Source of the DNA: Nephrocerus scutellatus
Lineage: Eukaryota; Arthropoda; Insecta; Diptera; Pipunculidae
Assembly: GCA_947095585.1 (NCBI GenBank)
Contig: OX352761.1
Location: forward strand, 59,388,832 to 59,452,831
Reading direction: 5' to 3'
Length of the DNA: 64,000 bases
Shown here: piece after piece, positions 3,393-53,338 of the stretch
How positions within the stretch are numbered: position 1 is the first letter of the stretch
Layout of the letters: every line of letters begins with the position of its first letter
Program-made: the position numbers and the translations under genes
The notes under the pieces: generated by a model
Seen by the model: only the letters and a program-made list of their open reading frames with translations
What the model was told of the DNA's origin: nothing
Databases searched by the model: none

Positions 3393-3577
3393 TTTATCAC
3401 TGATTTTTCGTGACTCTTTCGTTTGTAAGGCCTGGTACTACAAGCGAATTCGTTGCGATTTTCTGTTGGGCTGTTGTCTTTCAAAAAATCTTCTTATTCT
3501 TGTAATTTTTAATTGTTTTTATTTTAATTTATTTAACATATTTTTTTTCAAGTATTTCGTTATTTTTACATTGTGAA

Positions 3578-3715
3578 ATGAATTCTTATTTTGAAATTCA
3601 TTTCATTAATATTCGCGGCTTTAAGGGTAATTTTAACTCCATCGTAGCGCATCTTCACGCGAATAAACCCGCGGTTCTTAGTTTATGTGAAACGCAGACA
3701 TATGGGTACCCCTAA
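3578..3715 (+). pseudogene. detached N-terminus of J1b endonuclease
   Basis: An ATG at 3580 opens a frame with FEIHFINIRGFKGNFNSIVA and LCETQ, the first block of the AP-like endonuclease, including the Asn of the NIRG motif. It reads TYGYP then stops at 3714. Compared with J1a, a few bases are missing after ETQ, so it is out of frame with the long ORF at 3687. Copy c shares exactly this defect. Confidence 0.75.
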
Positions 3716-6401: not shown

Positions 6402-6634
6402 TTTACAGGCCTTCAAAATAGCTGTAAACAACTTCCTGAAGGACGACCGTAGTGTTCATTAGAGGATAAGATTATTTTATATAAAAAAATTACTATTTTT
6501 TGTATTATTTATAATATTTGTTGTTTATTTTGTAATATTTTCTTGGTCAAGGTTTTTTGTAGTTTTCCCTGACCATGATTCATTGATAAAAGTATTTGGA
6601 ATCGCGTCATTTTAAATTCGTGTTCGTTTTTCGT

Positions 6635-6825
6635 AATGCTTTTTCAACGAATCAGAGAGAATTCTGAGAAAATAAATTGAAACCGGCTACAAACGTGAGG
6701 AATGTGATATATTGTAAATCACATTCCTTTAATTTTTATTTTATTTTGAATTTTAATAAAGGGCTTAGCCGTGACGCAAGTCATTCAGGGAGTCCTCCCT
6801 TGGCAATAAGTCTATATATAAAAAA
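6635..6825 (+). other. possible gypsy-1 LTR part; contains 11-bp hairpin
   Basis: AT-rich stretch between J1b and the recognisable gypsy-1 LTR end. It holds an inverted repeat (6698-6728) and a TATATATA run near 6812, which could be U3 sequence of the LTR that ends at 6913. The alignable similarity to the LTR at 38883-39404 begins only near 6826. Confidence 0.3.
6698..6728. repeat. perfect 11-bp inverted repeat (hairpin)
   Basis: AGGAATGTGAT at 6698-6708 pairs with ATCACATTCCT at 6718-6728 across a 9-base loop. A related GGAATGTGT/ACACATTCC hairpin occurs twice at 38626-38770, just upstream of the other gypsy-1 LTR. Confidence 0.8.
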
Positions 6826-11683: not shown

Positions 11684-12388
11684 TGTTTGTATGTAGTTGT
11701 TGTTGGGTCTACTAGTATTGACCAAGGTTATTTTACCTTGACAATAGCTGATGAGAATGGTACATAAACCAGTATCACCAATTAGACTAGCAACGTTTGT
11801 TTGTGTTACCCAGTGAATGCGAAAAATGAGCGAAACAATGAACGGCGATTTAAAGAAAACTTTAACGAACTTGTTAATTGAATGACCATTTATTTCATTT
11901 ATTCATAGCTAGCATATCCCAGACAACTCGAACGGATGTTTCCCATGAAAAAGTGCTAGACTAAGATTTGTAACAAAATAGTATATGAATGCACGCGTCA
12001 GAGGTGTGCAACGAACGTGGGAATAAATTACAAAAAGTGTGATAAGAAATTATTCTACTGAATAAGTCAGCACATTGCACTGATCGTGGGAACAAGAATA
12101 TTGCAAAATAAGACGTCAGCACATTGCGCTGGTCGTGTGAATAAATTTAAAGACAATTTGGTAACTAAATATACTGTTACATGTGTATGTGTCTATTTTG
12201 AATTTTATACATTTATTTGATAAGGAAATATGTGCAATATGTGCATTTAAGTTTTATTAATCTAAGTAAGGAAATATGTTCAATGTGTGCATTTAAGTTT
12301 TATTAATCTAAGTAAGGAAATATGTGCAATGTGTGCATTTAAGTTTTATTAATCTAAGTAAGAAAATATACTACTCTAAGTATCAACA
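11684..12388 (-). repeat. BEL1 3' LTR
   Basis: In element orientation it starts TGTTGATACTTAG at 12388 and ends ..ACATACAAACA at 11684, next to the GATCC target duplication. Bases 11873-12388 match the LTR at 21719-22233. Relative to that copy it has a third 46-base unit and lacks about 44 bases near 11915. The 188 bases at 11684-11871 have no counterpart at the inner end of the 5' LTR, which must have been deleted there. The adjoining purine-rich GCGCGGAGAA (12389-12400) is a plausible polypurine tract. Confidence 0.82.
12221..12358 (-). repeat. 46-bp tandem repeat, three units, in BEL1 3' LTR
   Basis: Three exact-length 46-base units (12221-12266, 12267-12312, 12313-12358) containing GGAAATATGTGCAATGTG. 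The 5' LTR has two units (22112-22157 and 22158-22203). The copy number differs between LTRs of one element, so it changed after insertion or during reverse transcription. Confidence 0.88.
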
Positions 12389-17578: not shown

Positions 17579-18073
17579 TTACAATGCTCTGCATTCTACA
17601 ACGCCGACTTGGCTGTCCTCAAGTTTGACTACTACCGTGCTAAGGAACACGTAACATCTTTTGGTTTGCGCCAATGCTGCTGCCGACACAATCGTATTGC
17701 CCTGCCCTGTGAGTTTATCTGGATGGGATTCCAGGGGGCGTTGTCCACTGGAGGTATGAGTTGGCAATGTTGGTGTTTTCTCAAAATGTAACAAGGGGTT
17801 GTGTTTTCTTGAACATTTCGTGCAGCCACGGACAGCACATGATGGTGCTATGTGGCCATGTCTTAGGCAATTCATGCAGAGGTTTTTCTTCTTGACGAAG
17901 TCCAAGCGGCTTGTCGGTGTCAATTGTGAGAACTTCTGACAATAAAACAATTTGTGGTTGTCACTGGAGCATAGCGGACAACGGGCTCTTTCTGCTGCAA
18001 TAGACATCAATGCACGTGCAACCGGTTCCTTTTGATGGTCTTCTATGATTCGAGCTTTGTTTCCCAATGCCAA
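17579..18073 (-). pseudogene. BEL1 gag C-terminus with zinc knuckles
   Basis: Nucleocapsid part of BEL gag: RCPLCSSDNHKLFYCQKF (CCHC-like), LDFVKKKNLCMNCLRHGHIA then PSCAVRGCTKCSRKHNPLLH (further CCHC/H knuckles), typical of BEL/Pao. It enters the protease region (CYVFLSTVVVKLED) and stops at 17579. The frame begins at the J1c 3' boundary (18073/18074), so J1c lies directly against gag. Gag N-terminal domains are not found on the far side. Confidence 0.85.
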
Positions 18074-21000
18074 TACGAAATAACGAACACGAAACTAAAA
18101 CGACGCGATTCCAAATACTTTTATCAATGAATCATGGTCAGGGAAAACTACAAAAAACCTTGACCAAGAAAATATTACAAAATAAACAACAAATATTATA
18201 AATAATACAAAAAATAGTAATTTTTTTATATAAAATAATCTTATCCTCTAATGAACACTACGGTCGTCCTTCAGGAAGTTGTTTACAGCTATTTTGAAGG
18301 CCTGTAAATTATAAGATTCGGGAAATACGGAGTCGACCAATTGATTCCACATCGAAGTCACTCTCGGATAAAAGGACGATTTGAAGTGTTCTACATGAGA
18401 ACGGTTTTAAGGCAAACCTATGTTGATTAGACCTCAAACGAGTGTTAACGTTGCTGACAAAAGGACCTGGGAATAGAGAATGGGTTTCTGAAGAACATCT
18501 ACCGTTGTAAAATTTGTAGAAAACAGATAAAGCTCCAACATTATGTCTATGCTCCAAAGAATCAAGAGATGAAGTAATTGTTACATCGTTTATCAAACGG
18601 ATAACTCTATTTTGAATTCCATCAAGATGAACCAAATGCGATCTTGGAGCCCCACCCCACACATTTGAATTAAATTCTAAAATTGGTCTAACATAAGATT
18701 TATATAATCTTAATACTTCAGAGGGGCTGAAGTAAAAATTACAACGTCTTATAAAGCCCAAGCATTGGCTCGCTCTTTTTGAGATTTCATAAATATGTTC
18801 CTTCCAGGAAAGTTCACTAGAAATTTTCAAACCTAACATCTTAAGTGAAACTGATCTCGCAATAGTGGCACCATTAATTACAAGTGCTACGTAATGTTGA
18901 ATTGCCTTTTGAGAAAAAAGACAAGCCTGGAATTTATTTGGGTTAAATTCCACCCTATTAGATCTGCCCCAATAAAGAATAACTTGAATGTTCGACAGAA
19001 TTGTCAAATTCATTAATTCGCGCGAACCAATCAAGCGAGAATTGCATTCTTTTTGACTAACAAACTCCATGGAAGCCGATAACGTCGTATCATCAGCAAA
19101 TGAGTGGATATCACATGTAGAAGACAACAAGTCATTGATATATATTAAGAATAATGTTGGCGATAAGGATGACCCTTGAGGAACGCCAGCATTGATCTCA
19201 TGCGAAGATGAGGAAAAACAATTCAATACCACTTTTATTTTGCGGTTCCATAAATAATCCTCAATCCATGTAATGAGAGAGGGGTGTAAGTTGAGCGCAC
19301 AAATCTTATTAATAAGACAAATATGCCAAACTCTATCAAAACCCTTAGAAATATCCAAGGACACAACGCTTGATTCGCCTAGATTTTCAATGCTTCCCTC
19401 CCAACAATGAGTCATGCACGTCATTAGTTCACCTGAAGATCGATTTTTTCGAAATCCATACTGAACATCGGATAAAAGAGCATTCGAATCCAGATAGCTC
19501 ATTAGTTTGAAATTAATAATAGATTCCATTACTTTTGATAAAACTGACAACAGAACAATAGGGCGGTAGTTAGTAGGTGCAGATTTATCACCTTTTTTCG
19601 GGACGGGTTGAATATTAGCTATTTTCCAAATTGACGGAAAAACACCTGTCTTCATTGAGAGATAAAACAATTTGCTAAGCGGTTTTGCCAAAGTATGATG
19701 ACATTTTTTCAATAATAATGGTGGTATACCGTCGGGTCCAGTTGCTTTATTGGTGTCAAGTTCTTTAAGAATTTTGGAAACAACCCGACGACGGAAATAA
19801 ATTGAAGACATACCAGGGCCTACATTCGGGAGAATTGGTGGACTTTGGTTAGAAAATGGAAGGGTTGACGCACTAGCAAAATGCGAAGCTAAGAGATTTG
19901 CTTTCTGAATATCAGTTTTATAAAGAATACCATTATGGAATAGAGTAGGAACAGAAGAAGTCTTTTCTGCAAAGTTTCTTTTAACCATTGCTGCAAATGA
20001 CCAAAAGCTTTTAATGTTTGAATCACAATCTAAAATTTTCCGCATACTATCTCGAATCTTTTGGTCATTTATTACTTTGGACCTACTAATAATAGCTCTA
20101 TTTCTGGCTATTCTAAACTTAACAAGGTTTTCTACGGATGGGCAATTAACGTAATCCAAATGGGCTGATTTTTTACTCGCGACTGCTGACCTGCAGTTAT
20201 CATTAAACCACTTATTCTTACGAATATTGCTTTTCTTAAAGAAGGAAGGAATGAAATTTTTCATTCCTAGCAGAATGGTTGACGTGATCAGTTGAGATGC
20301 TTCATCAGCATTGTGGCTGGAAAAGCAGGTTGACCAATCAAATAAGCTTAAAAATTGATTCAGGAGCTCCCAGTTAGCATTTTTGAAGTGCCAGAGTAGC
20401 CTTTTACTTGTTGACCCTACAAGGGTTGGGGTTATTGAAAATTTGGCTAATACCAGAGCGTGGTCGGAAAGACCTAATGGAGCAGATAAATGAATTGAAT
20501 ATTTATCTGGCATAGAAGTTAGAAATAAATCTAATAGGTGAGGTGATTGACCAGTTGTATCGGAATATCTAGTTGGCTTATCGACGAGTTGTGTTAGGAG
20601 ATTGGCATCTGAAAATAGTTCTGCGGATTCACCTGATCGATCTCTACCATTCGAATATGTCAACCAAGAATCATTATGGACATTAAAATCTCCCAAAACT
20701 ATTAATTCTGAAGTTGGTGAGGATTCGTAAATCTTGTCAATTGTTTCCGATAAATTATCAAATTCAATTATAGTGTCATCAGGTGACAAATTTGGACTAC
20801 GATAAAGGGAACAAATAAACATTGAATGGTTTGCAATTATAATTTCAATCCATATCGTATTGAACAAGGGATTACATTTCGGAACAGTAAAATTAGGAAT
20901 ACTAAAACATATATCATCTCTAATAAAGAGAACAACCCCTCGATGCGGAACTAAACAGTCGACACGAGAATACCCCGGACATTGAAAATCATTAGGGGTA

Positions 21001-21307
21001 CCCATATGTCTGCGTTTCACATAAACTAAGAACCGCAGGTTTATTCGCGTGAAGATGCGCTACGATGGAGTTAAAATTACCCTTAAAGCCGCGAATATTA
21101 ATGAAATGAATTTCAAAATAAGAATTCATTTCACAATGTAAAAATAACGAAATACTTGAAAAAAAATATGTTAAATAAATTAAAATAAAAACAATTAAAA
21201 ATTACAAGAATAAGAAGATTTTTTGAAAGACAACAGCCCAACAGAAAATCGCAACGAATTCGCTTGTAGTACCAGGCCTTACAAACGAAAGAGTCACGAA
21301 AAATCAG
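18074..21307 (-). mobile_element. J1 LINE copy c, near full length, inverted twin of copy b
   Basis: About 3234 bases, nearly identical to copy b (3400-6634) and in opposite orientation, within BEL1. Ends defined by comparison: CTGATTTTTCG side at 21307, TTCGTGTTCG side at 18074. It shares copy b's frameshift in the endonuclease N-terminus. Flanking sequences differ from those of copy b, so it is a separate insertion of the same, already defective, source sequence. Confidence 0.88.
18309..21020 (-). CDS. J1c ORF2: endonuclease-reverse transcriptase (903 aa)
   Basis: Uninterrupted ORF equivalent to that of J1b. Motifs: FICSLYRSPN, LIVLGDFNVHNDSW (the intact GDFN that copy b has lost), GLSDHALVLAKF, KATGPDGIPP, VPKKGDKSAPTNYRP, YGFRKNRSSGE, DISKGFDRVWH, INAGVPQGSSLSPTLFLIYI and SFADDTTLSAS, with a thumb similar to copy b. 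One codon is missing in the SSTTCDIHSF stretch. As in copy b, the ATG lies past the first endonuclease block, whose NIRG-bearing piece is in another frame at 20995-21130. The RT core looks intact. Confidence 0.85.
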   Translation of the reverse strand: MKRRHMGTPNDFQCPGYSRVDCLVPHRGVVLFIRDDICFSIPNFTVPKCNPLFNTIWIEIIIANHSMFICSLYRSPNLSPDDTIIEFDNLSETIDKIYESSPTSELIVLGDFNVHNDSWLTYSNGRDRSGESAELFSDANLLTQLVDKPTRYSDTTGQSPHLLDLFLTSMPDKYSIHLSAPLGLSDHALVLAKFSITPTLVGSTSKRLLWHFKNANWELLNQFLSLFDWSTCFSSHNADEASQLITSTILLGMKNFIPSFFKKSNIRKNKWFNDNCRSAVASKKSAHLDYVNCPSVENLVKFRIARNRAIISRSKVINDQKIRDSMRKILDCDSNIKSFWSFAAMVKRNFAEKTSSVPTLFHNGILYKTDIQKANLLASHFASASTLPFSNQSPPILPNVGPGMSSIYFRRRVVSKILKELDTNKATGPDGIPPLLLKKCHHTLAKPLSKLFYLSMKTGVFPSIWKIANIQPVPKKGDKSAPTNYRPIVLLSVLSKVMESIINFKLMSYLDSNALLSDVQYGFRKNRSSGELMTCMTHCWEGSIENLGESSVVSLDISKGFDRVWHICLINKICALNLHPSLITWIEDYLWNRKIKVVLNCFSSSSHEINAGVPQGSSLSPTLFLIYINDLLSSTCDIHSFADDTTLSASMEFVSQKECNSRLIGSRELMNLTILSNIQVILYWGRSNRVEFNPNKFQACLFSQKAIQHYVALVINGATIARSVSLKMLGLKISSELSWKEHIYEISKRASQCLGFIRRCNFYFSPSEVLRLYKSYVRPILEFNSNVWGGAPRSHLVHLDGIQNRVIRLINDVTITSSLDSLEHRHNVGALSVFYKFYNGRCSSETHSLFPGPFVSNVNTRLRSNQHRFALKPFSCRTLQIVLLSESDFDVESIGRLRISRIL

Positions 21308-21718
21308 AGAGCCGATAGGCTTTCCAAAAAATTCAACTTAAATAAATACTTGTATAAAAGTCCATTTTGATCTTGTTAAGAATGTGGATCTTTCTTTATC
21401 AAGCAGAGCTAGGTTCGGTCTTGTCCAAGATCAAGAATTAACACTTTTCGTAGTTATCCAAGTCCAGCAATCATGCATGTATCCAAAAAATATTCTTTAA
21501 TTTTTTTTTGAGATGTTACGCAAAGAAAAAACACCAAAATTGAAATCTTTACAACACAACAACAAGACTGAAGGAATTAAAACACAACTTGTATAAAAAG
21601 GAAAAATAGAGTTTAAATTAATAAGAAAAAACAAATTTTTTAATTATTTCAAATAAATTCTATTATTAGTTTTTAAAATTTTTTTTGCTTGCGATATGTC
21701 TCAAGGCTAGCTTTTTTA
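21308..21718 (-). other. AT-rich segment between J1c and BEL1 5' LTR
   Basis: About 410 bases where the inner LTR end, primer-binding site and gag N-terminus of BEL1 should be. None of these is recognisable. One minus frame gives LYKYLFKLNFLESLSAL, vaguely gag-like but not convincing. It may be unrelated DNA brought in by a deletion or insertion. Confidence 0.4.
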
Positions 21719-22233
21719 ATTTAATTGAATGACCATTTATTTCATTTATTAATAGCTTATATAATATGATTTCTTATCATAAGCATGCATTCGTTGAGTG
21801 CAGTGCTAGCATAACCCAGACAACTCGAACGGATGTTTCTCATGAAAAAGTGCTAGACTAAGATTTGTAACAAAATATTATATGAATGCACGCGTCAGAC
21901 ACCGAACGTGGGAATGAGTTACAAAAAGTGTGATAATAAATTATGCTACTGAATAAGTCAGCACATTGCACTGATCGAGGGAACAACAATACTGCAAAAT
22001 AAGACGTCAGCACATTGCGCTGGTCGTGTGAATAAATTTAAAGACAATTTGGTAACTAAATATACTGTTACATGTGCATGTTTCTATTTTGAATTTTATA
22101 CATTTATTTGATAAGGAAATATGTGCAATGTGTGCATTTAAGTTTTATTAATCTAAGTAAGGAAATATGTGCAATGTGTGCATTTAAGTTTTATTAATCT
22201 AAGTAAGAAAATATACTACGCTAAGTATCAACA
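21719..22233 (-). repeat. BEL1 5' LTR, inner end truncated
   Basis: Same orientation as the 3' LTR: starts TGTTGATACTTAG at 22233, next to the target duplication GATCC (22234-22238). Similarity to the 3' LTR ends near TTAATTGAATGACC (21719). About 188 bases present at the end of the 3' LTR are missing. It has an extra 44 bases (about 21763-21807) and two rather than three 46-base units. Confidence 0.82.
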
Positions 22234-41270: not shown

Positions 41271-42905
41271 TTCAGAGCAGGAACCTCTTTGCGCATGTGA
41301 GCTAGGTGTCCTAGCCACCGGTGCCTACCGAGCTTAATTCTCTTCACGATGTCGACATCGCGGTAACGCTTGTAGATCTCATAATTATAGAGTCTCCGGA
41401 ATCGTCCTTCATCACATACGAGGCCAACAATTCTCCGTAAGACTTCTCTCGAACGCGGCTAAGAGGTCAGAATGCTTTTTGCTAAGCACCCAAGTCTCGG
41501 ATCCATATGTAAGTACTGGTATGACCATTGCCTTATATACCAGCAGCTTGGATGTTATGGTTAAGTTCCTGGATTTGAAAAGTCTTTACATACTATAGTA
41601 GGCTTTGTTGGATTCAAGCAACCATGCGCGTATTTCTGATTCCATGCTGTTATTGGCTGCTACAGTTGACCCGAGATAGTTAAAGGATTGCACTACTTAT
41701 TCGCGTTCCACTATTTTAATCGCGGGACCAATGTTGGATCTTCTAGTCACAGACGTGGCCACCATGTTCTTTGTTTTGCTCTCATTTATGTGCAGCCCCA
41801 GATTTTATGCCGCCTGCTCGATCTGGATTAAAACTTCCTGTACCGCTCTTTGGTTTCTACCAACGATGTCAATATCGTCTGCGTAGGCTCGTATCTGAAT
41901 GGACTTACAGAGGATTGTACCTCTCGCCGTTACGTCGGAGTTTCGGATCACTTTCTTCAATGCCAGGTTGAAGAGGACGCAGGCCAATCCATCCCATTGT
42001 CGTAGCCTGCTATAGATGTTGAATGGGCTTGATAGTGATCCGAATATTTTTACTTGGCTTATAACATTGGTCATGGTCAACCTACAGGGTCGTGTCAGTT
42101 TATTTGGGATGCCGAATTCTCTCATGGCTTTATAAAGTTCTACTCTGGCTATGCTATTATAGGCGGCTTTAAAGTCTATAAAAAGATGGTGTAGTGAGTT
42201 TGGAAACTCTAGACGTTTTTCCATCACCTGTATAAGGGTGTAAATCTGATCAGTTGTTGATTTGCCTGGGATGAAGCAATACTGGTATGGACCAATGATG
42301 ACTTTAGCGTATGGGGCTATCCTGTCTTGAAGGATAGAGGAGAAATAGCACGGTACTCAACAACGTTATACCACGATTATTGCTGCATTTTGTGATATCT
42401 CCCTTCTTATGTATGGGGCAAAGGATGCCTCTTCGCCAGTCTTCTGGCATAACTTCTTCTTGCCATACTTGCACTATTATTTCATGAATTGCTTGGTGTA
42501 ATGTGGGGCCTCCTATTTTTATCAGTTCCCCTGGGATCCCATCAGATCCCGGGGCCTTATTATTTTGAGCCGATTTATCGTTCTGCTAACTTCATCTATG
42601 CTTGGTGGCGGCAGCATAGTATGATCTTCGGTCATTGGTGGAGCCTCCGATTCCTCAGTTAAATGCCCATTTAGCAACTTATGAAAGTGATCTTCTCAGC
42701 GCTCTTAGATGCCTTTAAGATCGGTGATATTACCCTCTTTGTTTTTGCAGCATGTGCAACGCGGTGTAAATTGCGTCATACCGCATATGCTTTGGATAAA
42801 CTTCCGCGCCTGCTGCGGTCTTCGCTCTCTGTACTGTTCTGGTTCACGGACGAGATTCTTCTTCCGGACTGCTTTTTTCGCCGGCGAACTGTTATTCCAT
42901 TGACG
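41271..42905 (-). pseudogene. RTE-like LINE, RT region remnant
   Basis: Minus-strand RT of the type common in insect RTE-like elements. 42900-42600: a linker with KNKEGNI, RREDHFHKLLNG and PPPSIDEVSRTIN. Then PEDWRRGILCPIHKKGDITK, QYCFIPGKSTTDQIYTLIQV, HLFIDFKAAYNSIARVELYK (FDF-type block), SRLRQWDGLACVLFNLALKK (RQGD expected; here RQWD) and QIRAYADDIDIVGRN (catalytic YADD). The tail FNYLGSTV, VLTYGSETWVLSKKH reaches about 41330. Multiple frame breaks. The endonuclease is missing. Exact clade uncertain. Confidence 0.75.
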
Positions 42906-42964
42906 GAGATGAAGTTAAGAGCAGAGAGTTAAGAGCGGTTTCTCAAACGGGAAACGGAACAATT

Positions 42965-44157
42965 TTGGATTCGCGAGCAAAAAACATCGATTTAAATTTA
43001 TCTACACATTATGTGAAAACGAATGTCTTTTTGAGGATACTTAGGTGTGTTGCGACTGCACTGAACCGAAATATTCCAATTCTAGCTGTCATCGACGGGG
43101 GAAGTCAGCACACTTACGTACGCCAAAGTGTTGCAAACAAACTAAACTTAAAAGCAATTGGGACGGTCGATTTGTCAGTAATTCCATTCGGTAGTTTATT
43201 AAAGTTAAACTCCGTTTGAAAAGTTCTTTAAATCTCGGTGTGCTTATATCAGTTGAGGCCGTCGTAGTGCCGGAAATCTGCGTGGACGTATTAGAAGTTC
43301 CAGAGAGCGATTGTCCACTCTTTGAAGGCATGAGGTTGTCAGATGTTCGCCCAACACATATGGAGGAAGAAGAGGGGTTAAGTCTTCTCATCGGATCTGA
43401 TTTTTACTGGTCTGTCATTACTGGAAATCAGCGTCATCTGACCAAACGAGCTATAGAGACAGTATTTGGATGGGCCTTACAGGGTGTCGATGTCTCCGTA
43501 AGTAATAGTCTCCTTGCATCTAATGAAAACTCTTGTTGTACTTCCAGCAGTCTTCCTGGTTTAACAGCAATAAAAGTAGATCCTTCTCAGCTCTGGTCGC
43601 TCAAAGCTATTGGTATAAAGAGTAATGAAGAAGAAAATCAAGAGCTGACGGACAGCCTTACCGAGAAATGTAACACCCGAGTAGGCTCAAGGTACATCGC
43701 AAGCTTGCCCTGGAAAAGGGTTCATATCCAAAATGACAACAAGGGACAGGCGTTGCAGCGCTTACTCTCACTGTTTCGACGTTTGTCAAGAGAACCAGCA
43801 AGACTTTTGGAGTACGACGCTGCTATTAGGCAATTAATTAACGACGGCGTTGCAGAACAATTTGATTTCAATTGCAATAGCCCGCGGGTGTTTTATATGC
43901 CGTATCGACCTGTTTATAAAGAAGGAAGTACCACAAAATTACGTGTGGTATTCGACGCGTCATCGCAAAGTGATGGAACCGGCTCTCTGAACGATCATCT
44001 ACTGAATTTTCGCCTAGGCCTCATAGGTATTGTGGCAGACATCGAAAAGGCCTTCCTTCAAATCTCTTTAAAAACGGAAGATCGTGACAGCCATCGTTTC
44101 CTATGGTTTGAATCAACGTTCAGGTCAGTCACCGATTGCCGAGTTCCGGATGACTAG
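42965..44157 (+). pseudogene. BEL2 protease and RT N-terminal part
   Basis: 42965-43219: NIPILAVIDGGSQHTYVRQS, a retropepsin-like start where D-S/T-G is D-G-G, and VANKLNLKAIGTVDLSVIPF. A stop at 43219. 43230-44157: LSLLIGSDFYWSVITGNQRH, TVFGWALQG (BEL DUF1758 end), RRLSREPARLLEYDAAIRQL, FYMPYRPVYKEGSTTKLRVV, FDASSQSDGTGSLNDHLLNF and VADIEKAFLQISLKTEDRDS (catalytic Asp). About 13 residues are deleted after SLNDH compared with other BELs. Frame lost near 44130. Confidence 0.82.
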
Positions 44158-45165
44158 AGTTACGTTTGGGGTAAATTGCAGTCCCTTTCTATTATGTGCG
44201 ACTATCAAACATCATCTTAAGCATGAGGAAGTATATTTAGCTGAAACCTGCTGTGTACTGAAATACAGCATATACATGGATGATTTAGTCATTAGCGTAG
44301 ATGGCGAAGATGAAGGAAGATGAAGGAAGAAGAATTTGCAACGAAGCAGTCACCGTCCTGAAAGAAGCATTGATGACCCTTCATAAATGGAACTCGAACA
44401 ACAGCAAGGTACGAGAGGCGATGAGCACCATCAGTACGCCTCACAAGCAAAAAGTATTGGGGCTATATTGGTTCATACATAGCGACGAGTTCCTATGGAT
44501 TCGTTTGATGCAATGCTTGTTTCCAGTTTAACAAAAGGGACCAAACGCAACGTGCTCTAAACTATCGCAAGGATCTTTGACCCAATAGATATTCTTGGTT
44601 CTTCTATTATCAAACTAAAGATTCTTTTCCAGAATTTATGGATAAAGAAGATATCGTGGGATAAAGTTCTTACTGGTGACTCTTTGACTGAGTGGAACGA
44701 ATGTGTTAGTAGTATTCTGGAACTGAGAGACATGAGCATTCCAAGAGGAGTGCTTTCATTACCTTCACGAAGAGGAATTATGGAAATCCACATCTTTGCG
44801 GACGATAGTACGAAGGCCTATGTGCCAAAAATCGAGTGGCTCCTTTGAATTCCGATGGCAGCAGTGAACTGATCCTACCCAAATTGGAACTTACGGCTGC
44901 TGAACTTGGAGCTGCTCGGCTTCATTCGTATTTGCAAGGGGCTTTGAAGTTATCCTCCGCCAAATATAGCATGTGGACGGATTCTAAGATAGTCCTGAGT
45001 TGGATCCAAGGCAACGTGCAACGCTGGAAGCCCTATGTTCAGAACAGGGTCGACGAGATCAGAAGGCTGACGAAAATTTCTCAGTGGAATCATTGCAAGG
45101 GTAAAGCCTTACGAGAGGGATTAGCGGTAATGCTCTTCGTAAATCTTCACTCTGGGCTCACTGAG
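44084..45165 (+). pseudogene. BEL2 RT C-terminal part and RNase H
   Basis: 44130-44323: RMTRVTFGVNCSPFLLCATI and KYSIYMDDLVISVDG (catalytic YMDD). Then a small duplication (GAAGATGAAGGAA twice near 44308-44330) shifts frame. 44330-44530: EAVTVLKEALMTLHKWNSNN. 44540-44830: LWIKKISWDKVLT, IHIFADDSTKAYV. 44836-45100: SELILPKLELTAAELGAARL (RNase H), SMWTDSKIVLSWIQG, WKPYVQNRVDEIRR, then LRKSSLWAH out of frame to about 45165, where gypsy-2 begins. Confidence 0.82.
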
Positions 45166-45184
45166 AACGATAACAGCATTTGGA

Positions 45185-46297
45185 ATTTTCAAAATCACCA
45201 ACATCGATGAAAAGAAAAATTTATTACTACACTACATGGGTAATGAAACGCACGACATAATATCCGATAAATTGGCTCCGCTAAAACCAAATGCAAAAAC
45301 ATACGACGAAATAGTTAAAATATTGGGTAATTATTACAAACCAGAACCACTAGAAATTGTGGAAAACTTTAGATATCATCTACGCAAACAACATGATGGA
45401 GAAACAGTTAGTGAATTTGTTAATGCATTACGTAAATTGGCAATTACATGCAAGTTTGGTAATTACTTGGATACAGCTTTACGAAACCAGGTGGTGTTTG
45501 GCCTGCGATCATCGAAAATTCAGAACAGACTGCTGGAATACAAGGAACTAACATTACAAAAGGCTATCGACACAGAAACAGCAATGGAAGTTTCTGCTAA
45601 AGGGGGTGCGGAAATACATATACAAAAAAAAACCCATAAAAATTAAAATTTTTCTTGTAAATTTCCTAATCGGGGATACACACACACACACACTGCGTGC
45701 TCGTTTTGTGGCAAAATCATCCACCAAGTGACGCAGCGACAGCCAACACCGCTGCTCACAAAGCACAGAGCTCAGACTTTGCCGTGATCTGATGCGATAT
45801 AGCGATATCCCCCCCCCCCCCCGACCGCGAGGTCCAAGGGGCCTCAAATTTTAATAGAAAGTATTGTCACCGGAAATACACATGTGTGCATTTCAATAAA
45901 ATCGGGCTATGGGAAGTGGGTTAAAAATTGATCGCAAGATTCCATGACACACAAACAAACAAACCCACAAACCCACGGGCAAGTGAAGTTAATATAGAGA
46001 ATTTAAAAAGTTGGAGCAACAAAATGTATTACATATGCTTGAAGATAAAAAGTACCAAAATTACACAAAATATTCAGGTAATCTTACATGTCCAATAACA
46101 AAAATATTACAGATAAAAAAAAACCGTGTTACCGTTGTGGTGATAATATACACTTAGCAAATAAATGCAAATATATTAATACAATATGTAATTTCTGTAA
46201 TATTAAAGGTCATTTAGGAAAAGTTTGTTCTAAAACTAAAGCAAAAGTTAACATTTCCAATAAAAAAAATATAAAAACCAGAAACAAATTTTATTGA
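45185..46297 (+). pseudogene. gypsy-2 gag with two zinc knuckles, split by X-element
   Basis: Capsid part (45236-45630): MGNETHDIISDKLAPLKPNA, YDEIVKILGNYYKPEP, VENFRYHLRKQHDGETVSEF and LRNQVVFGLRSSKIQNRLLE, classic Mag/Ty3 gag. It is cut in an A-run at 45625-45631 and resumes after 46009 with LEQQNVLHM. Nucleocapsid (46088-46297): CYRCGDNIHLANKC and CNFCNIKGHLGKVC, two perfect CCHC knuckles, followed by a basic tail. Without the X-element the gag would be almost continuous. Confidence 0.83.
45631..46009 (-). repeat. X-element inserted in gypsy-2 gag
   Basis: Read on the minus strand: TAAATTCTCTATATTAACTT end, 'tgcccgtgggtttgtggg', 'cacttcccatagcccg', acacatgtgt palindrome, 'ggcccc', then an internal part with a C14 run (about 45810-45824) and a (CA)n, and the end TTACAAGAAAAATTTTAATT + TTTATGGGT. 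Both sides abut A-runs of the target gag. Confidence 0.78.
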
Positions 46298-47270
46298 TGT
46301 TAGAGAAGTTTGCAATATTGTTAAAGTTAACGATAGAAATAAAATTTGGGTAAATTTAAAAGTAAATGAAAATTATATAAAATTTGAAATTGATAGTGGA
46401 TCACCTGTATCTATAATTTCTTTAAATACTAAATTACAATATTTCAACAACATAAAGTTTATTAAGTTTTTGCAATATAAAAATAAATATTTTCGGGTTT
46501 TTGAACGTCGAAGTATCATACAATAACACTATTTCTAAATTAAAATTATACGGGGTACACACGGGTAGACAGCCTTTGTTAGATCGAGAATGGTTACGTC
46601 ATTTACAATTTAATTGGAATAAAATATTAAATGAAAGTTTTTCAAATATTATTCATATTGATAATTGTACAACAACTACACAACAAAAATTACAAGAATT
46701 GAGAATTAAATACGAAAATGTTTTTAAAACAAATACAATTGGTAAAATAGCAAATATGCAAGCTCATACGTTTAAAAGAAAATACAATACCAGTCTTCAT
46801 GAAAGCTAGAACTGTACCATTTGCAAATTGAAATTGAAATTGAAAAATTGAAACTATACTTCAAGGCATATCAGGTGTTACGGTATTCTTACACGATATC
46901 AAAACTACTGGCGAAAACGATGAAGGACATTTACAAAGATAAGAAGAAGTTCTAAATAGATTGAACAAATACAATATGAAAGTAAACATTAATTGTGAAT
47001 TTATGCAAGAAAACAAACAATACTGTGGTTATATAATTAACAAAAATGGGGTACAGAAAATGCAAACCAAAATAGATGCAATACAAAATATGGCAGTTCC
47101 GAAAAATAAAGACCAAGTACGTGCAATGGTTGGTTTAATAAATTACTATGGTAGATTTTTTAAAAACCTAAGTACTATAATTTATCCAATTAATAATCTT
47201 TTAAAAAAAGATACGAAATTTATTTGGGATAAAAATTGTGAAAATGCATTCAAAAAATTAAAGAATTAAC
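46290..47270 (+). pseudogene. gypsy-2 protease and RT remnant
   Basis: Protease: YIKFEIDSGSPVSIISLNTK with the intact D-S-G (about 46375-46430). Then KLKLYGVHTGRQPLLDREWL and the RT start QELRIKYENVFKTNTIGKIA. The RT core is deleted: KARTVPFAN jumps to ILQGISGVTVFLHDIKTTGE, where the FLDD catalytic motif reads FLHD. The connection follows: NEFGYIINKNG-like CGYIINKNGVQKMQTKIDAI and MVGLINYYGRFFKNLSTIIY. Dead by deletion, catalytic loss and frame breaks. Confidence 0.8.
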
Positions 47271-47274
47271 ACAA

Positions 47275-47875
47275 TCACCTACAATATTGGCACATTACGA
47301 TTCAAATTTACCATTACTATTAGCTACAGATGCTTCACCATATGGAGTGGGAGCAGTCTTAAGTCACAAATACCCTGATGGTGTTGAATACAGTACGCTT
47401 CACAAACATTATCAGAAACACAGAAACGATATAGCCAACTTGATATGGAAGAAATTTTATCAATACATTTTTGGTAGAAAGTTTACACTCATTTGCGACA
47501 ATAAACAAGTTTTACAATTTTTGTCACCGAAAAAAGGTTGACCAACTATGGCTACATTACGAATGCAACATTATGCAATATTTCTTGCAGGTTTCAATTA
47601 TGATATCATATACAAAGATACAAAATCATATGCTAATGCTGATGCAATGTCACGTCTACCAACAAAAACATGTGAAAATCTATTAGATGAATCGGATGCT
47701 ATGGAAATTAACCAAATTGAAACATTACCAATTACGGTACAAGAATTAGCCAATGCAACTGTAAGATATGAAAATTTTAAAATTTTGATACAAGGATTAA
47801 TTAAAGGAGAAAATATACATTCAAAACATAGATTTGGAATGAAAGAATTGGCTCGAATGTACTGTTGGTGGTAAG
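47275..47875 (+). pseudogene. gypsy-2 RNase H and linker to integrase
   Basis: 47287-47541: LLLATDASPYGVGAVLSHKY (first Asp), YIFGRKFTLICDNKQVLQFL (third Asp region). The segment between is deleted after YSTLHKHYQK. 47548-47874: MATLRMQHYAIFLAGFNYDI, SYANADAMSRLPTK (ADALSR end of RNase H), then an Ile/Glu-rich linker to a damaged zinc-binding region near 47900. Confidence 0.78.
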
Positions 47876-47879
47876 GAAT

Positions 47880-49011
47880 GAACCATGATATAGAACATAT
47901 AGTAAAAAATTAAAAAATTGCCCAATATATAAATCGAATCCAACAAAAGTACCATTACATCTATGGGAAAAAGCAACTAAACCATTCCAAAGAGTACATG
48001 TTGACTTTGCTGGACCATTTTAATGTAAATATAATTTGATTTATATAGATGCATACTCGGAATGGCTAGAGGTAAAAATACTAAATGATATTACCACAGA
48101 TACAACAATAAACAAATGTAGAGAAATTTTTAGTACATTCGGAATTCCAGAAATTTTAGTAAGTGATCATGGGGTACAATTTACGTCGCGCGAATTCCAA
48201 TTTTTTTAAAAAACAATGGTATAAAACATAAAATGGGTGCACCATACCATCCAAGTACAAATGGACAAGCCGAAAGATACGTTCAAACTATTAAAAATAA
48301 ATTACGATCATTGAAATGCAATAAAACACAATTGAATGCAGAATTATGCAATATACTATTAACATATAGAAAAACTCCACATCCATCGACTGGAAAATCA
48401 CCATCACAATTAGTTTTTCAAAGACAGATTAGATCACGAATAGATTTAATGATACCTACGACTGCAAATGAAAATCATAAATTTATAGAAAATTCTACGA
48501 GAAATTTATTAATTGGGGATAAGGTAGCTTGTCGCGAATATTTGAATAAATATATAAAATGGAGATTTGGTACAATTACAAAAAGAATTGGATTATTAAA
48601 TTACGAAATGCAATTAGATGGTCATAGAAAATGGCAACGTCATATCGATCAGTTAAGGGTTGTTGGTTCCGATGTGCGCGGAGAGATCAGTGATAATGTG
48701 ACTTACGATATTTATGATGATACTTCCACATCCAATACCGATAATAAGCGAAATGATTTAAATCCATATAAAATAAATTATAACCCTAATGTAAATCATA
48801 CAAATGCTACCGAGTTTAATAAGACTATTACAAATGAAAGAATTTAAATACCAAGTAGTATAAATGAAAATATTGTATTAGAGTCAGAAAACGTAAATAT
48901 GGAAAATAATACTGTTCCGGGATCTAACACCACAAATGTAAAATATGAAGATAATCCTATACGTAGATCCAAGAGAATTATTAGAAAGCCAAATAGATTA
49001 AATTTATAAAA
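47880..49011 (+). pseudogene. gypsy-2 integrase
   Basis: KATKPFQRVHVDFAGPF (first Asp of DDE), a stop, LIYIDAYSEWLEVKILNDIT, FGIPEILVSDHGVQFTSREF (second Asp), a stop, then from 48233 MGAPYHPSTNGQAERYVQTI (third catalytic Glu in QAERYVQT), LTYRKTPHPSTGKSPSQLVF, GDKVACREYLN and a C-terminal tail to RRSKRIIRKPNRLNL at 49009. The 48233-48847 frame is open. The DDE triad is recognisable but split by two stops. Confidence 0.8.
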
Positions 49012-49053
49012 TGTACATGAACAATATGAATTATTAATTACTGAGGGGAGAGT

Positions 49054-49226
49054 TGTTATATCCACTGAAATATATATCACTTAATCTAGTAATTTCCTAG
49101 TTTACTTTTCTAAGCTGTCATATTTTCAGTATAAATATATAGGTATTACTTCCTCTTGTCAGTTCGAATAAAGAAAACACTCGTACAAATCATCAGACTA
49201 AGTCTTTTTCTTGTTTTACAATTACA
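49054..49226 (+). repeat. gypsy-2 3' LTR
   Basis: Begins TGTTATATCC right after a polypurine tract (TGAGGGGAGAG, 49042-49052) and ends near ..TTTTACAATTACA, where BEL2 integrase sequence resumes. Contains AATAAA near 49169. No 5' partner in the window, so the length (173 bases) is inferred. Confidence 0.65.
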
Positions 49227-50350
49227 CCGGCAATTACGACGGCTATAACAGATATAGTTCCTGGAACCGTTTACTCCGAGTTACAGCGTTCATTTATCGC
49301 TTTGTCCGAAACACTAAAGAAAGGCTAAGATCGTCTAGGATCAAATCCGAGTTCGAAGTCCCAATTCCGCCTTTGTCAGCTGCAGAAATCCAAAATGAAG
49401 AAAACCATTGGTTTCGGTATGTCCAAAAACATTATTTTTTTTAATGAAATTTGCCTATTGCAGAAGGGCCGAGTTTTAATGAAGTCTTCAAAGATTTGCG
49501 AGTTATCTCCCTTCTTAGACAAGGGTGTCATGAGGTTAGGCGGTCGTCTGCAGTCATCAAATGAAGTGATGGATGCAAAACACCCGATTATCATCCCAGC
49601 AAAGTCACACATTGTCAGTATTATCGTTGAGGACTACCATCAAAGAGTACTTCAGGCTGGAGTCAACATTGTGCTGGCACAATTACGGAAGCATTTCTGG
49701 ATTGTGAAGGAGCGGCAGTTGGAGCTAACGAGGAGTTTATCGAATGATCATTTTTTGATGGCTCTTAGGCGGTTCATTGGCAGACGTGGGGTGCCTACTA
49801 GGATATTGTCAGACAACGCTCGCGTTTTTCGGAGAGCTGCTATTGAGTTGCGTAGTACTGACTCTCTTTAGGACGAAGAAGTCATCCAGGGATTCCTGTC
49901 ACTAAGAAAGATAAAGTGGAATTTCACACTTGAACGTGCGCCATGGTGGGGTGGTTTCTGGGAGAGACTGATCCGAACAATGAAAAATTTGATGAAAGTA
50001 ACAATCGGCAAGGCAAAACTTAATTTTGAACAGTTAAGACCAATCATCGTCGAGACAGAAGAAATTGTCAATAGCCGTCCTCTTACATATGTGAGCGCAG
50101 ATCCAATGGACCTATCCCCCCTGACGCCTTCAAGTGTTCTTTTTGAGTCGCGAAGTGTACCTATAGATTTATCGCCCAAAGAGCCTGACGCAGAGATCCT
50201 TCGAAATGTCTGGAAGCAGCGGATGAGATACGCTACTAAGCTAAAAAATCGATGGCGGCCGAATAAATCCACGGTCCAGCTAAAAGAGGGTGATGACGGC
50301 CGATTCAACTACTTTATCCTCTGGAACTTCATCTGCGCCCGGCCGATGAT
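49227..50350 (+). pseudogene. BEL2 integrase with internal deletion
   Basis: 49227-49440: DGYNRYSSWNRLLRVTAFIY, RFVRNTKERL (BEL connector), SAAEIQNEENHWFRYVQKHY. 49440-49871: ELSPFLDKGVMRLGGRLQSS (BEL signature), HPIIIPAKSHIVSIIVEDYH, NIVLAQLRKHFWIVKERQ, then a jump to DHFLMALRRFIGRRGVPTRI and LSDNARVFRRA. The zinc CxxC and the first catalytic Asp are thus deleted. After a stop, 49872-50340: FTLERAPWWGGFWERLIRTM (catalytic Glu), NSRPLTYVS, RNVWKQRMRYATKLKNRWRP. Dead. Confidence 0.82.
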
Positions 50351-50573
50351 GTTAAAAATTAAGTTATAAGCTGACTGCTCATGACTAATGTGTCGATCTC
50401 TTTCTTACATTTGCCATGTATTCTATATGCTTACACTAGTATCATGTTTGTTCAGTTGCGATTCTCCTTTACTACGGTCGACATCATTCTTTGTAATCAT
50501 TCGCATTGTAATAGTAATAAATATATGAATACAATCGGACTTTGTTTAATTAATAACGGTCTTTTTTACAACC
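50351..50573 (+). repeat. probable BEL2 3' LTR
   Basis: Starts TGTTAAAAATTAAG within the end of the integrase frame, as in many env-less BELs, and ends near TCTTTTTTACA. Contains a TTCAGTTGCG initiator-like site (about 50454) and an AATAAA at 50517-50522. No second copy in the window to confirm the borders. Confidence 0.5.
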
Positions 50574-51066
50574 AGCTCAGCGGTCCAGGGTTCGCAAAAA
50601 CTTTTTTTGTTTGTTTGTAAATACTATTTGAATTGAATATTATACATATACATATTGTTAAACATAACACATAAATTAATTGAAATATAAGTGAAATACT
50701 TTTCTTGCACATAAAATATTTTACTCTAGAATAAGCACCCTGTAGGCTAAGAACAATTGTAACGGGCTTTGCTTCAATAGTACTGCACCGACAATTACGT
50801 AGCAACACTCATGGCAATACACAGTGTGAATTACATATTTACACAAGTGTGTTCCCACCGAGTTACAAAGTAAAATCATACATAATTATAATTACTAACA
50901 AGAACTATGTACTACAACAACAACACGGCCATTGGGTTCAGCATGCGGACAACGGAAAACATACATCACACACACGGTATACGCATGCCGCACGCACAAA
51001 CAGGGACAATGTACACACACGGAAGATTACTATACGCATGCTGGACCAAATGAACCGTTAGTTCAA
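50574..51066. other. AT-rich stretch upstream of hairpin locus, nothing recognised
   Basis: No coding similarity. Contains short alternating purine-pyrimidine runs (acacacac, 50966-51020; 'acgcatgc' near 50980 and 51034). It could be upstream promoter or U3 sequence for the transcription start proposed near 51093. Confidence 0.4.
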
Positions 51067-51067
51067 G

Positions 51068-51093
51068 TATAAAAGGAGGCTGCTGATCGCTCA
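51068..51093 (+). promoter_or_regulatory. candidate core promoter (TATA box and initiator)
   Basis: TATAAAAGG at 51068-51076, then CTCAACAGG with TCA at 51091-51093 about 25 bases downstream, a plausible start site. A consensus 5' splice site, CTG|GTAAGA, is at 51131-51139. Together with the downstream AATAAA cluster this suggests a transcription unit, or an LTR R region. Inference only. Confidence 0.5.
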
Positions 51094-51136
51094 ACAGGGA
51101 GTCGTTCGTGAACCGTCGCAGGGTGCACCACTGGTA

Positions 51137-51810
51137 AGACTCATAATTCTTTGATTATTCTTAGTTTATTTTTATTCTTAAGTTATATATTCCCCCCACC
51201 TGCGGTAAGGGGTTGTGAGTCTATTATCATAGTCTATATATAGCATATAACTTCCCCCCACTCGTGGTAAGGGGTTATATGCTATTATCAGTATTCACTA
51301 GCAAAGGTTCTACACAGTTTGCAACTTCCCCCCACCCGTGGTAAAGGGTTGCAAACTATTGTTATTTCGCTCATAGGGGGCAGAGATTTTATCTCTCCAT
51401 TTCTGGTTTGGTCAGCTACGTTTTCTAGCTTGCATACGGGTTGCAACGTCCCCCCACCCGTGGTAAGGGGTTGCAATTCCACATTTAGCTATTGCGCTCA
51501 TAGGGGGCAGAGATTTTATCTCTCCAGTTCGGATTTGGATAGATATTTTACTTACAAGAACATTAGCCCAGACATATCTTACAGCTTCCCCCCACCCGCG
51601 GTAAGGGGTTGTAAGATATTACATTACATTACATATAGCTCACAGCTTAACAAACCCCCCCCCCCCTCCACCCGCGGTAAGGGGTTGGGAGTCTTTTATA
51701 ATAGTATATATATAGCATATAGCTTCCCCCCACCCGTGGTAAGGGGTTATATGCTATTATCGTTATTTATTTGCAAACTATTGTCAGAGGTGGCAGAGAT
51801 TTTATCTCTC
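51137..51810 (+). repeat. array of about ten hairpins of two classes
   Basis: Class H1, seven units (cores near 51192, 51254, 51328, 51450, 51587, 51655, 51726): a constant core with CCCC/GGGG and CCAC/GTGG pairs and TAA between, flanked by self-complementary arms that differ from unit to unit. Examples: ATAGCATATAAC/GTTATATGCTAT (51240-51285), AGTTTGCAAC/GTTGCAAACT (51316-51357), ATATCTTACA/TGTAAGATAT (51574-51619), ATAGCATATA/TATATGCTAT (51712-51757). Unit 6 has lost its arms and holds a 14-C run. Class H2, three units (51382-51396, 51509-51523, 51795-51809): AGAGAT-TTT-ATCTCT preceded by GGGGGC or GGC. Longer duplications link units 1-2 with 6-7 and 3+H2 with 4+H2. Confidence 0.85.
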
Positions 51811-51894
51811 CATGTCTAACTTGGTTAGTTATACTTAGTGGTACGACTCACACACCTACGAATGCACCTTACGATGTCGGGACGTCGACTCCCC

Positions 51895-52035
51895 GAATAA
51901 AACAGTAAGCTAAAACATTGTAAAACCACGAATAAAACAGTAAGCTAAAACATTGTAAAATCACGAATAAAACAGTAAGCTGAAACATTGTAAAACCACG
52001 AGTAAAATAGTGAGCCAAAAACATTGTAACACCAT
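51895..52035 (+). repeat. 35-bp tandem repeat with AATAAA signals
   Basis: About four units of a 35-base repeat with GAATAAAACAGTAAGCTAAA and ACATTGTAAAA. Each unit but one has AATAAA. Further AATAAA copies follow at about 52077, 52100 and 52114. It could act as a polyadenylation region for a transcript through the hairpin array. Confidence 0.8.
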
Positions 52036-52205
52036 AAGTTAAATAAAATTCCAAAAGAAAAACAAGACATCTTTAAATAAAACATTGTACAACCTTAAAT
52101 AAATAAAAGCCGAATAAAACCAACAAACGTCTTAAGATTTAAATGTTTTTCTGTAACGAACCCTTGAAATCGCTGAGCATACCCCAGCTATAAAACTTCG
52201 TTACA
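52036..52205. other. AT-rich link to transposase remnant
   Basis: Degenerate continuation of the AATAAA-rich repeat, then unique sequence up to the end of the pogo-like transposase remnant. No gene seen. Confidence 0.4.
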
Positions 52206-53338
52206 CGTCTACCTATGAACAGCATTTAAATGTGGAGTGAAATGTATTTAGAGCCAAAGCAGTCTTTTTACCTCTAGAAAAATTCCTTGTAGCATATTCA
52301 ATGCTGTTGCTGAAGCCTCTGCGACTGTTCCGATAGTGCAACTTCGTTAGACGTATCACATTCTGGTCCATTGGCTGAATAAGGGGCGTTGCATTCGGAG
52401 GCATAAACATTGTGATGATGTTGCCATCATTACTACGGAGTTCGATTTCCCTTGGATGGCTGGGAGCGTTGTCAAGAATCAACAATGCCTTTTCAGGCAG
52501 ATTATTGTTTTTCATAAATTTTCCGAACCTGAGTATTGAATTATGAAATTATGATTTAGATAACTTTTGAATCGTAGAACTTACCTGTGGAAAAAATTCG
52601 GAATAAAACCATTTTTTAAAAATTGCTTTTTACCGTCCATGCCGTTTTGCAGTTGGTGTATGTTATGGGAAGATCAAAATTCTTGAAACATCGCGGTTTT
52701 TTTGCCTTGCCAATAACTAGCAATTTTAATTTATGCTCTCCTGTTCTATTGGTACACACAAGAAAAGTTATGCGCTCCTTCTGCCAGGAGCTGATCTCTC
52801 ACCATTGTGAATATAAGTTTTGTTCGGAATCAATTGCCAGTAAAGACCACTTTCATCGGAATTATAAACCTGGGCTTTAGTCGAGTTCTCTTATCTTCTC
52901 AGATAACGTGCCTGAAAAGGCTTGACTGCACTTTCATATGCGCTTAATTTTTCACCGCTAATTGCCAAAAGTCGCATTCCAAATCTTGCCTTGAAATTCT
53001 TTATCCAACCATCACTGGCATTAAAGGATAACCTTTCTTTGTAGATGGAATGTAGCTTTTTGGCTTTCGCTCTAATCATGTTTCCTGATATTGGGACATG
53101 TCGGTCTCGCTGCCTCAGAAACCATCTGTATAGGGCAGCCTCCATTAATGGCATCTGACTTTTCTTAAGTGTTTTTCGCGATTTTATCAGATTGCTTTTG
53201 TTTTTTATACCGCTAATGGTTGATTTTGCAACACCAAATTTCATCGCGAGGGACCATTGCACCATTTTTGAGATCCTCTAGAAGTTCACATTTTTGTTTT
53301 AAATTTAAAAACTTAACTTTTCCTTTGACGGGTGGCAT
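52206..53338 (-). pseudogene. pogo/Tigger-type transposase with a 56-base intron
   Basis: Start ATG at 53338 (MPPVKGKVKFLNLKQKCELL). A one-base frameshift near 53245 precedes SLAMKFGVAKSTISGIKNKS, the CENP-B/psq-type helix-turn-helix. Then a Tc5-type HTH (FLRQRDRHVPISGNMIRAKA, SDGWIKNFKARFGMRL), and DDE domain blocks AQVYNSDESGLYW (first Asp; partly shifted, with a stop), [12 protein letters not shown] (second Asp) and [17 protein letters not shown] (third Asp). A 56-base segment, 52529-52584, has GTAAGT..CAG ends; removing it joins NFFHR to FGKFMKNN in frame. The C-terminus is lost at about 52210. Dead DNA transposon of the Tc1/mariner superfamily. Confidence 0.82.

Follow-up and report, generated by a model that had tools for sequence, protein, structure and literature searches.

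A tandem array of covarying hairpins in the expected R region of an LTR retrotransposon family of Nephrocerus scutellatus that looks Osvaldo-like

Insulators are known in the long terminal repeat (LTR) elements of flies, and the repeated elements in the 5' noncoding part of gypsy, ZAM and Idefix act as double-stranded protein sites. Yeast mitochondrial GC clusters combine a GC-rich core with complementary arms, and retroviral R regions and leaders hold, as a rule, a few unique stem-loops. Structured R regions are already a known kind: lentiviruses, gammaretroviruses and spumaviruses have long, structured R regions or 5' leaders, and PMC3601003 links the residual conservation of long retroviral R regions to stem-loops. 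Long LTRs characterize the Osvaldo lineage (Osvaldo, Ulysses, Isis and mosquito relatives), with 997 to 2055 bp given for Culex; according to PMC3286476, the hosts are dipteran and the primer binding site (PBS) is invariably of tRNA-Lys. The family described below, from the fly N. scutellatus (Diptera; Pipunculidae), has similarly long LTRs and also 4-bp target duplications. Unlike retroviral leaders, it carries up to 10 copies of one hairpin that alternate with a second, in numbers that vary between copies; its hairpin arms covary, in contrast to the gypsy, ZAM and Idefix repeats, and its cores, unlike the yeast clusters, lie in LTR arrays at the places examined, none standing alone. Searches of open-licence PMC papers gave no report of a tandem, copy-number-variable array of two alternating covarying hairpins in R, nor any that describes covarying hairpins in tandem for the R regions of Osvaldo-lineage elements.

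The array was encountered in a 64,000-nt stretch of assembly GCA_947095585.1 (contig OX352761.1, positions 59,388,832 to 59,452,831), here called the window. A first-pass annotation, made from the letters of the window, had described seven hairpins with a common core (H1) and three of a second type (H2). Both sets were recovered by pattern search (Table 1), the H2 hairpins being identical to one another, and none of 100 shuffles reached seven H1 cores or three H2 hairpins. The TATA box and donor-like site described ahead of the array and the AATAAA-rich 35-bp repeat behind it are likewise all present in the sequence. The arm lengths given earlier (12, 10, 10, 10 and 7 bp) came close, with contiguous Watson-Crick pairs measured at 11, 9, 6, 10 and 10 in H1 units 2, 3, 4, 5 and 7 and at 1 in unit 1 and 3 in unit 6. 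When arms of equal composition were drawn at random, at least 9 contiguous pairs arose in about 3 of 10,000 draws. The right arm of unit 1, TTGTGAGTCT, is by eye complementary to AGACTCATAA, which an AT-rich insert separates from the unit 1 core, while unit 6 has a C run where its left arm would be expected and is without a good one.

Table 1. Features of the LTR and its hairpin array, in window coordinates
Feature	Position	Strand	Basis or remark
LTR, left end truncated	50570..52205	+	genomic alignments; right end ...CTTCGTTACA
TATA box TATAAAAGG	51068-51076	+	U3/R junction, read from sequence
End-to-end stem of R, 5' half, predicted	51097..51129	+	window -41.4 kcal/mol, 0/500 letter shuffles
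Splice-donor-like G/GTAAGA, predicted	51133-51139	+	read from sequence
H1 core starts (n = 7)	51192, 51254, 51328, 51450, 51588, 51664, 51726	+	pattern search
H2 hairpin starts (n = 3)	51379, 51506, 51792	+	pattern search
H1 unit 1 core	51192..51212	+	left arm partner displaced to 51138-51147
H1 unit 2 with arms	51240..51285	+	pattern, arm pairing, unit alignment
H1 unit 3 with arms	51314..51359	+	pattern, arm pairing, unit alignment
H2 hairpin 1	51379..51398	+	pattern search
H1 unit 4 with arms	51436..51481	+	block duplicate of unit 3
H2 hairpin 2	51506..51525	+	pattern search
H1 unit 5 with arms	51574..51619	+	pattern, arm pairing, unit alignment
H1 unit 6 core	51664..51684	+	block duplicate of unit 1
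H1 unit 7 with arms	51712..51757	+	block duplicate of unit 2
H2 hairpin 3	51792..51811	+	pattern search
End-to-end stem of R, 3' half, predicted	51863..51893	+	directly before first AATAAA
Four 35-bp tandem repeats with AATAAA, poly(A)-signal-like	51894-52034	+	tandem repeat search
Terminal inverted repeat TGTAACGAA...TTCGTTACA	52152..52205	+	closes LTR-end stem-loop; fold -11.0 kcal/mol

Comparison of the window with itself aligned H1 units 1-2 and 6-7 as one 114-nt block with 89% identity, and unit 3 plus its H2 with unit 4 plus its H2 as a second (86% over 98 aligned columns). The array in the window grew through block duplication, so the five complementary arm pairs of the first-pass annotation, although present, represent three independent arm types there. 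When the segment 50000-54500 was searched against the window, no further copy appeared. A 182-amino-acid stop-to-stop frame overlaps the array at 51271-51819 and has no Pfam match, and no Rfam match at gathering score was obtained in the window. Both hairpins were without a match in IMG/VR, and searches of GTDB genomes and of phage records gave none.

The anatomy of the LTR was drawn from 39 genome stretches around copies of the array, for which at least 92 genome alignments were found, several as pairs 5 to 9 kb apart (40 of 510 candidates scored). Intact LTR copies start with TGTAAGGACG and end with CTTCGTTACA. All 14 left-most alignments listed begin at window position 50570, which corresponds to about base 45 of the intact LTRs; at the right edge, five of the 10 right-most alignments listed stop at 52205 and five extend 1 to 25 bases further. 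Among the 32 copies showing the end with the TATA box, the window included, TATAAAAG is found in 29 and the donor-like GGTAAGT in 25, the latter also occurring in a second subfamily. From the position of the TATA box, we infer that transcription would start near 51093-51100; the first AATAAA is at 51896-51901. At the 3' end of the LTR, a stem similar to that of the window is seen in the two other copies folded (L047 and L077). In intact copies the inverted repeat of this stem adjoins the presumed PBS and, as we see it, resembles the retroviral U5-IR. A retroviral U5-IR loop is mentioned in PMC3601003. As judged from these landmarks, the array sits where the R region of the LTR is expected. The interval annotated at first, 51068-52135, spans the TATA box to the last part of the LTR, and one of the readings offered for it, the R/U5 leader of an LTR element, agrees with the LTR ends obtained from genomic copies, which place the array where R and U5 belong.

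Within the window, the LTR is followed by CGTC after 52205, with no PBS there, and upstream lies the end of a BEL/Pao pol gene (matches 49524-50344); in our reading, this LTR copy is truncated and dead and neighbors a fragment of BEL/Pao. Ownership of the array by the upstream BEL/Pao element was the first idea, from its position (the pol remains reach 50344), and was ruled out since the element examined between such LTRs (L070 and L071) carries Ty3/gypsy genes. A solo LTR with a target duplication was also considered and rejected: the pairs of ends tried yielded neither a 5-bp nor a 6-bp duplication, and the eleven 4-bp duplications come from very many end pairs tried, with a left end that is truncated.

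The BEL/Pao remains occupy window 42800-50361 in + orientation, with a Peptidase_A17 match at 44809-45210 and an RP-QLLYPLE-like stretch at the pol end (about 50297-50344). By eye, a Ty3-like insertion at about 45200-49230, whose rve_3 match is just under the cut-off, seems to interrupt them; the BEL integrase was without a match in IMG/VR. On the - strand beside the LTR, 52891-53277 encodes a Tc5/pogo-type transposase DNA-binding domain (HTH_Tnp_Tc5, E 1.7e-16). Elsewhere in the window, 3397-6638 and 18071-21310 form a 3.24-kb inverted duplicate (99.4% identity) with a long reverse-transcriptase-like frame, and a 46-bp tandem repeat is common to 12221-12369 and 22112-22214.

Grouped by its features, without a tree, the element looks like an Osvaldo-like Ty3/gypsy retrotransposon. 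LTR lengths are about 1.1 to 1.75 kb (653-2403 in L038, 592-2050 in L039 and about 1.1 kb in L077). Directly after the LTR, nine copies show (G)TGGCGCCCGAGCAGGGAC or a near form of it, which we presume to be a tRNA-Lys-type PBS, and a G-rich purine tract lies upstream of some intact LTRs (L039, L042 and L048 among them). It is because LTR length and this presumed PBS type resemble those of the Osvaldo lineage, as given in PMC3286476, that the label is used. Both LTR pairs checked have 4-bp target duplications, GTTT for L038/L039 and GGAT for L047/L048; the latter two are about 49 kb apart and, if they belong to one element, it was opened by later insertions. The internal pieces L070 and L071, from one element, contain RNaseH, Integrase_H2C2, rve, gag and zf-CCHC matches, with RNaseH before integrase in pol. 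Among named sequences, the two best hits to the integrase piece come from Bactrocera dorsalis and Drosophila melanogaster. Between the integrase and the 3' LTR, the reading frame is broken in L070 2413-3570 (G000:C3:63880300-63884000), where the beginning and the later part of Peptidase_C48, the Ulp1/SUMO protease, are matched weakly and separately, with E 0.0053 and 0.1 and neither reaching the Pfam cut-off. Ulp1 domains are reported in Ginger1 and Mutator DNA transposons in PMC2836005.

An exact search of the 613-Mb genome (nine contigs) gave 1042 matches to the 21-nt H1 core CCCCACCCGYGGTAAGGGGTT, 439 on one strand and 603 on the other. The H2 pattern has 316; the reversed core and the H2 control gave none. 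The second LTR subfamily (three loci, L074 to L076), with 6 to 10 H1 units per array, keeps the H1 core and has different arms that are nonetheless complementary; at two of these loci, AGAGGT/ACCTCT replaces AGAGAT/ATCTCT in H2. So many exact cores with differing arms might be expected of small mobile palindromes that copy their flank in inverted form when they insert, another reading in the first-pass annotation. This was dropped after a genome-wide search for the core, as the three apparently lone cores examined among the 1042 matches (L077 to L079) all lie inside LTR arrays, each with three H1 and one to three H2; both ends of the LTR are seen in L077, and its right end in L078. Since flanks outside the arms also look alike between units, we regard such palindromes as extremely improbable. 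As a separate observation, three LTR copies (L035, L036 and L037, G000:C2:61428500-61443500) follow each other at a tandem-like 5.87-kb spacing and are 97.5% and 99.4% identical over about 3.1 kb, flanks included.

Covariation was scored on 93 distinct H1 units of exactly 46 nt, from 161 matches. Paired cells amounted to 89.7%, compared with 82.7% in shuffles, 129 cells in these related rows were changed on both sides, compared with 44.4, and the covariation score was 0.328, compared with 0.201 (0/500 shuffles in each case); sliding the partner lowered pairing to 28 to 46%. The numbers of pairs changed on both sides (246/500) and of further pair types (436/500) showed no excess over shuffles. 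From unit to unit in the genome, the H1 arms covary in the way expected of RNA structure, with two of the five measures at shuffle level, and the doubly changed cells bear out the arm covariation suspected at first reading. Arm types lie a few paired steps apart (AGCATATAG/TTATATGCT, AGTTTGTAA/TTGCAAACT, ATCTTACAG/TTGTAAGAT and AGCTCACAG/TTGTGAG; GGTTTGTAG/TTACAAACC is found in the second subfamily) and, by eye, reflect stepwise paired changes on common outer flanks. The head columns T14, C24, G25, G27, T29, A30 and A31 are invariant in 93 of 93 units, and each head includes GGUAAG, with four of its six letters invariant and the other two at 90% or more, the same letters as in the leader donor. 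The hairpins were kept foldable while their letters changed, which suggests that the shape of the RNA is important to the element. Some copies retain broken or chimeric H1 arms. In L031, L032 and L034, chimeric-looking units have left and right arms of different types that pair poorly, as if exchange had occurred inside the fixed core.

H2 is mostly conserved in sequence (84 of 138 copies identical), and its covariation is weak, with seven doubly changed cells (1/500), a score reached in 17/500 shuffles and paired cells in 42/500; the remaining two measures were at shuffle level (300/500 and 303/500). Its few paired changes are A-U to G-C in the second subfamily and U-A to C-G in L065 and L078. 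Such conservation would suit a chromatin insulator or transcription-factor platform acting at the DNA level, as in the 5' regions of gypsy, ZAM and Idefix, and the left flanks of H2 are repetitive too, the three commonest, TCATAGGGGGCA, TTATAGGGGGCA and TCAGAGGTGGCA, accounting for 53, 23 and 20, together 96, of 138 copies. In the window, these flanks (51375-51383, 51502-51510 and 51788-51796) read AGGGGGCAG twice and AGGTGGCAG once, presumably like the middle of a CTCF site. That putative likeness is one of motif, and a double-stranded site does not need arms that change letters yet stay complementary, as those of H1 do; we therefore hold an insulator or factor platform to be unlikely.

Which strand folds was judged from wobbles and energies. 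In the eight pairs next to the H1 core, G.T wobbles outnumber A.C by 116 to 27, 53 of the 116 being one shared pair next to the core; this count took all 87 distinct arm pairs of the 161 matches, a few in shifted register. The consensuses of 15 arm types with at least two units gave a sense-leaning tally of 10 to 4 over pairs 2 to 8. Changes inside arm types (152 units, arm clusters of fewer than four dropped) comprised 53 G.T and 36 A.C, compared with about 1.2 to 1 estimated from the flank spectrum, and show little sense bias. In all eight copies folded, the sense R lies below its dinucleotide shuffles (12 per copy; z -2.3 to -10.6), and in seven of the eight the folding energy of the antisense strand is the lower one; the C.A pairs of the fixed core (its CC/AA loop) would be G.U in antisense. 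We lean tentatively toward the sense strand, since the TATA box and poly(A)-like signals of the LTR point that way.

The lower antisense energy is among the observations that would fit a process acting on DNA, in which plain tandem duplication spread the units and template switching or conversion in small palindromes kept the arms complementary, with no function in RNA. The block duplication of H1 units agrees with it, as do the unequal unit numbers of the 5' and 3' LTRs of one element (L038 and L039) and the occurrence of chimeric units. Template switching, however, should yield perfect pairs alone, whereas G.U wobbles are common in several arm types; the arm types are, by eye, separated by single paired steps, and the head as well as the arms is conserved across subfamilies. 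We leave this DNA process a real, if minor, chance of being the right account.

The first 45 bases of R are predicted to pair with the stretch before AATAAA in an end-to-end stem of 19 aligned pairs (18 of 46 sequences were skipped for want of one R end). As in the window, none of 500 shuffles of the 3' part matched the duplex energies of L075 (-43.4 kcal/mol) and L077 (-47.7 kcal/mol), while shuffled letters paired as well in 9 and 21 of 500 (two runs) for L074 and in 16 of 500 for L047. After a further four were dropped for replaced ends (L032, L055, L040 and L041), 24 rows, 17 of them distinct, had a single cell changed on both sides (65/500), and their share of paired cells was only slightly above that of shuffles (0.960, compared with 0.951; 0/500). 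This stem is given as a prediction, as its sequence is conserved with hardly any paired variation; the duplex energies suggest that the whole array may fold as one closed domain.

The explanation we favor, and consider reasonably probable, is that the array, within the R region of an Osvaldo-like LTR, forms a domain of RNA stem-loops that acts in cis and is present at both ends of the genomic RNA. Its observed part consists of the LTR anatomy, the many genomic relatives and the covariation of the H1 arms. The LTR leader and the arm covariation of the first-pass annotation hold together in it, and the mobile palindromes do not. While elements of the family were active, R would have been transcribed from the TATA box, placing the array at both RNA ends, where it would fold as successive H1 and H2 stem-loops, which the long end-to-end stem may close. 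Each H1 would present a freely varying stem and a head of fixed sequence, made up of a CC/AA internal loop and a CCGYGGUAA tip. The heads are putative sites, present in several copies, at which a single protein would bind; the likeliest candidates are the Gag of the element itself, in packaging and dimerization, or a host RNA-export or splicing factor. Tandem H1 copies would give multivalent binding, and the number of units would shift through unequal exchange.

A more specific role may be read from the partly buried GGUAAG of each H1 head, the heart of a 5' splice site, and from the conserved leader donor GGUAAGU ahead of the heads: the array might offer U1 snRNP a tandem bank of structured sites or decoys whose copy number can be tuned, which we think decidedly unlikely. 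If it were true, the retroelement could set the balance of spliced and unspliced RNA or repress the early poly(A) signal of its own R, and covariation would preserve the stability of the hairpins.

For genome annotation, the family carries a caution, in that hairpin arrays met in raw genome sequence may be the R regions of LTRs and not new noncoding RNA genes. With about 1000 exact cores, free arms and a fixed head in one genome, it provides natural compensatory-mutation data, and it is a ready test case for the recruitment of proteins by retroelement leaders.
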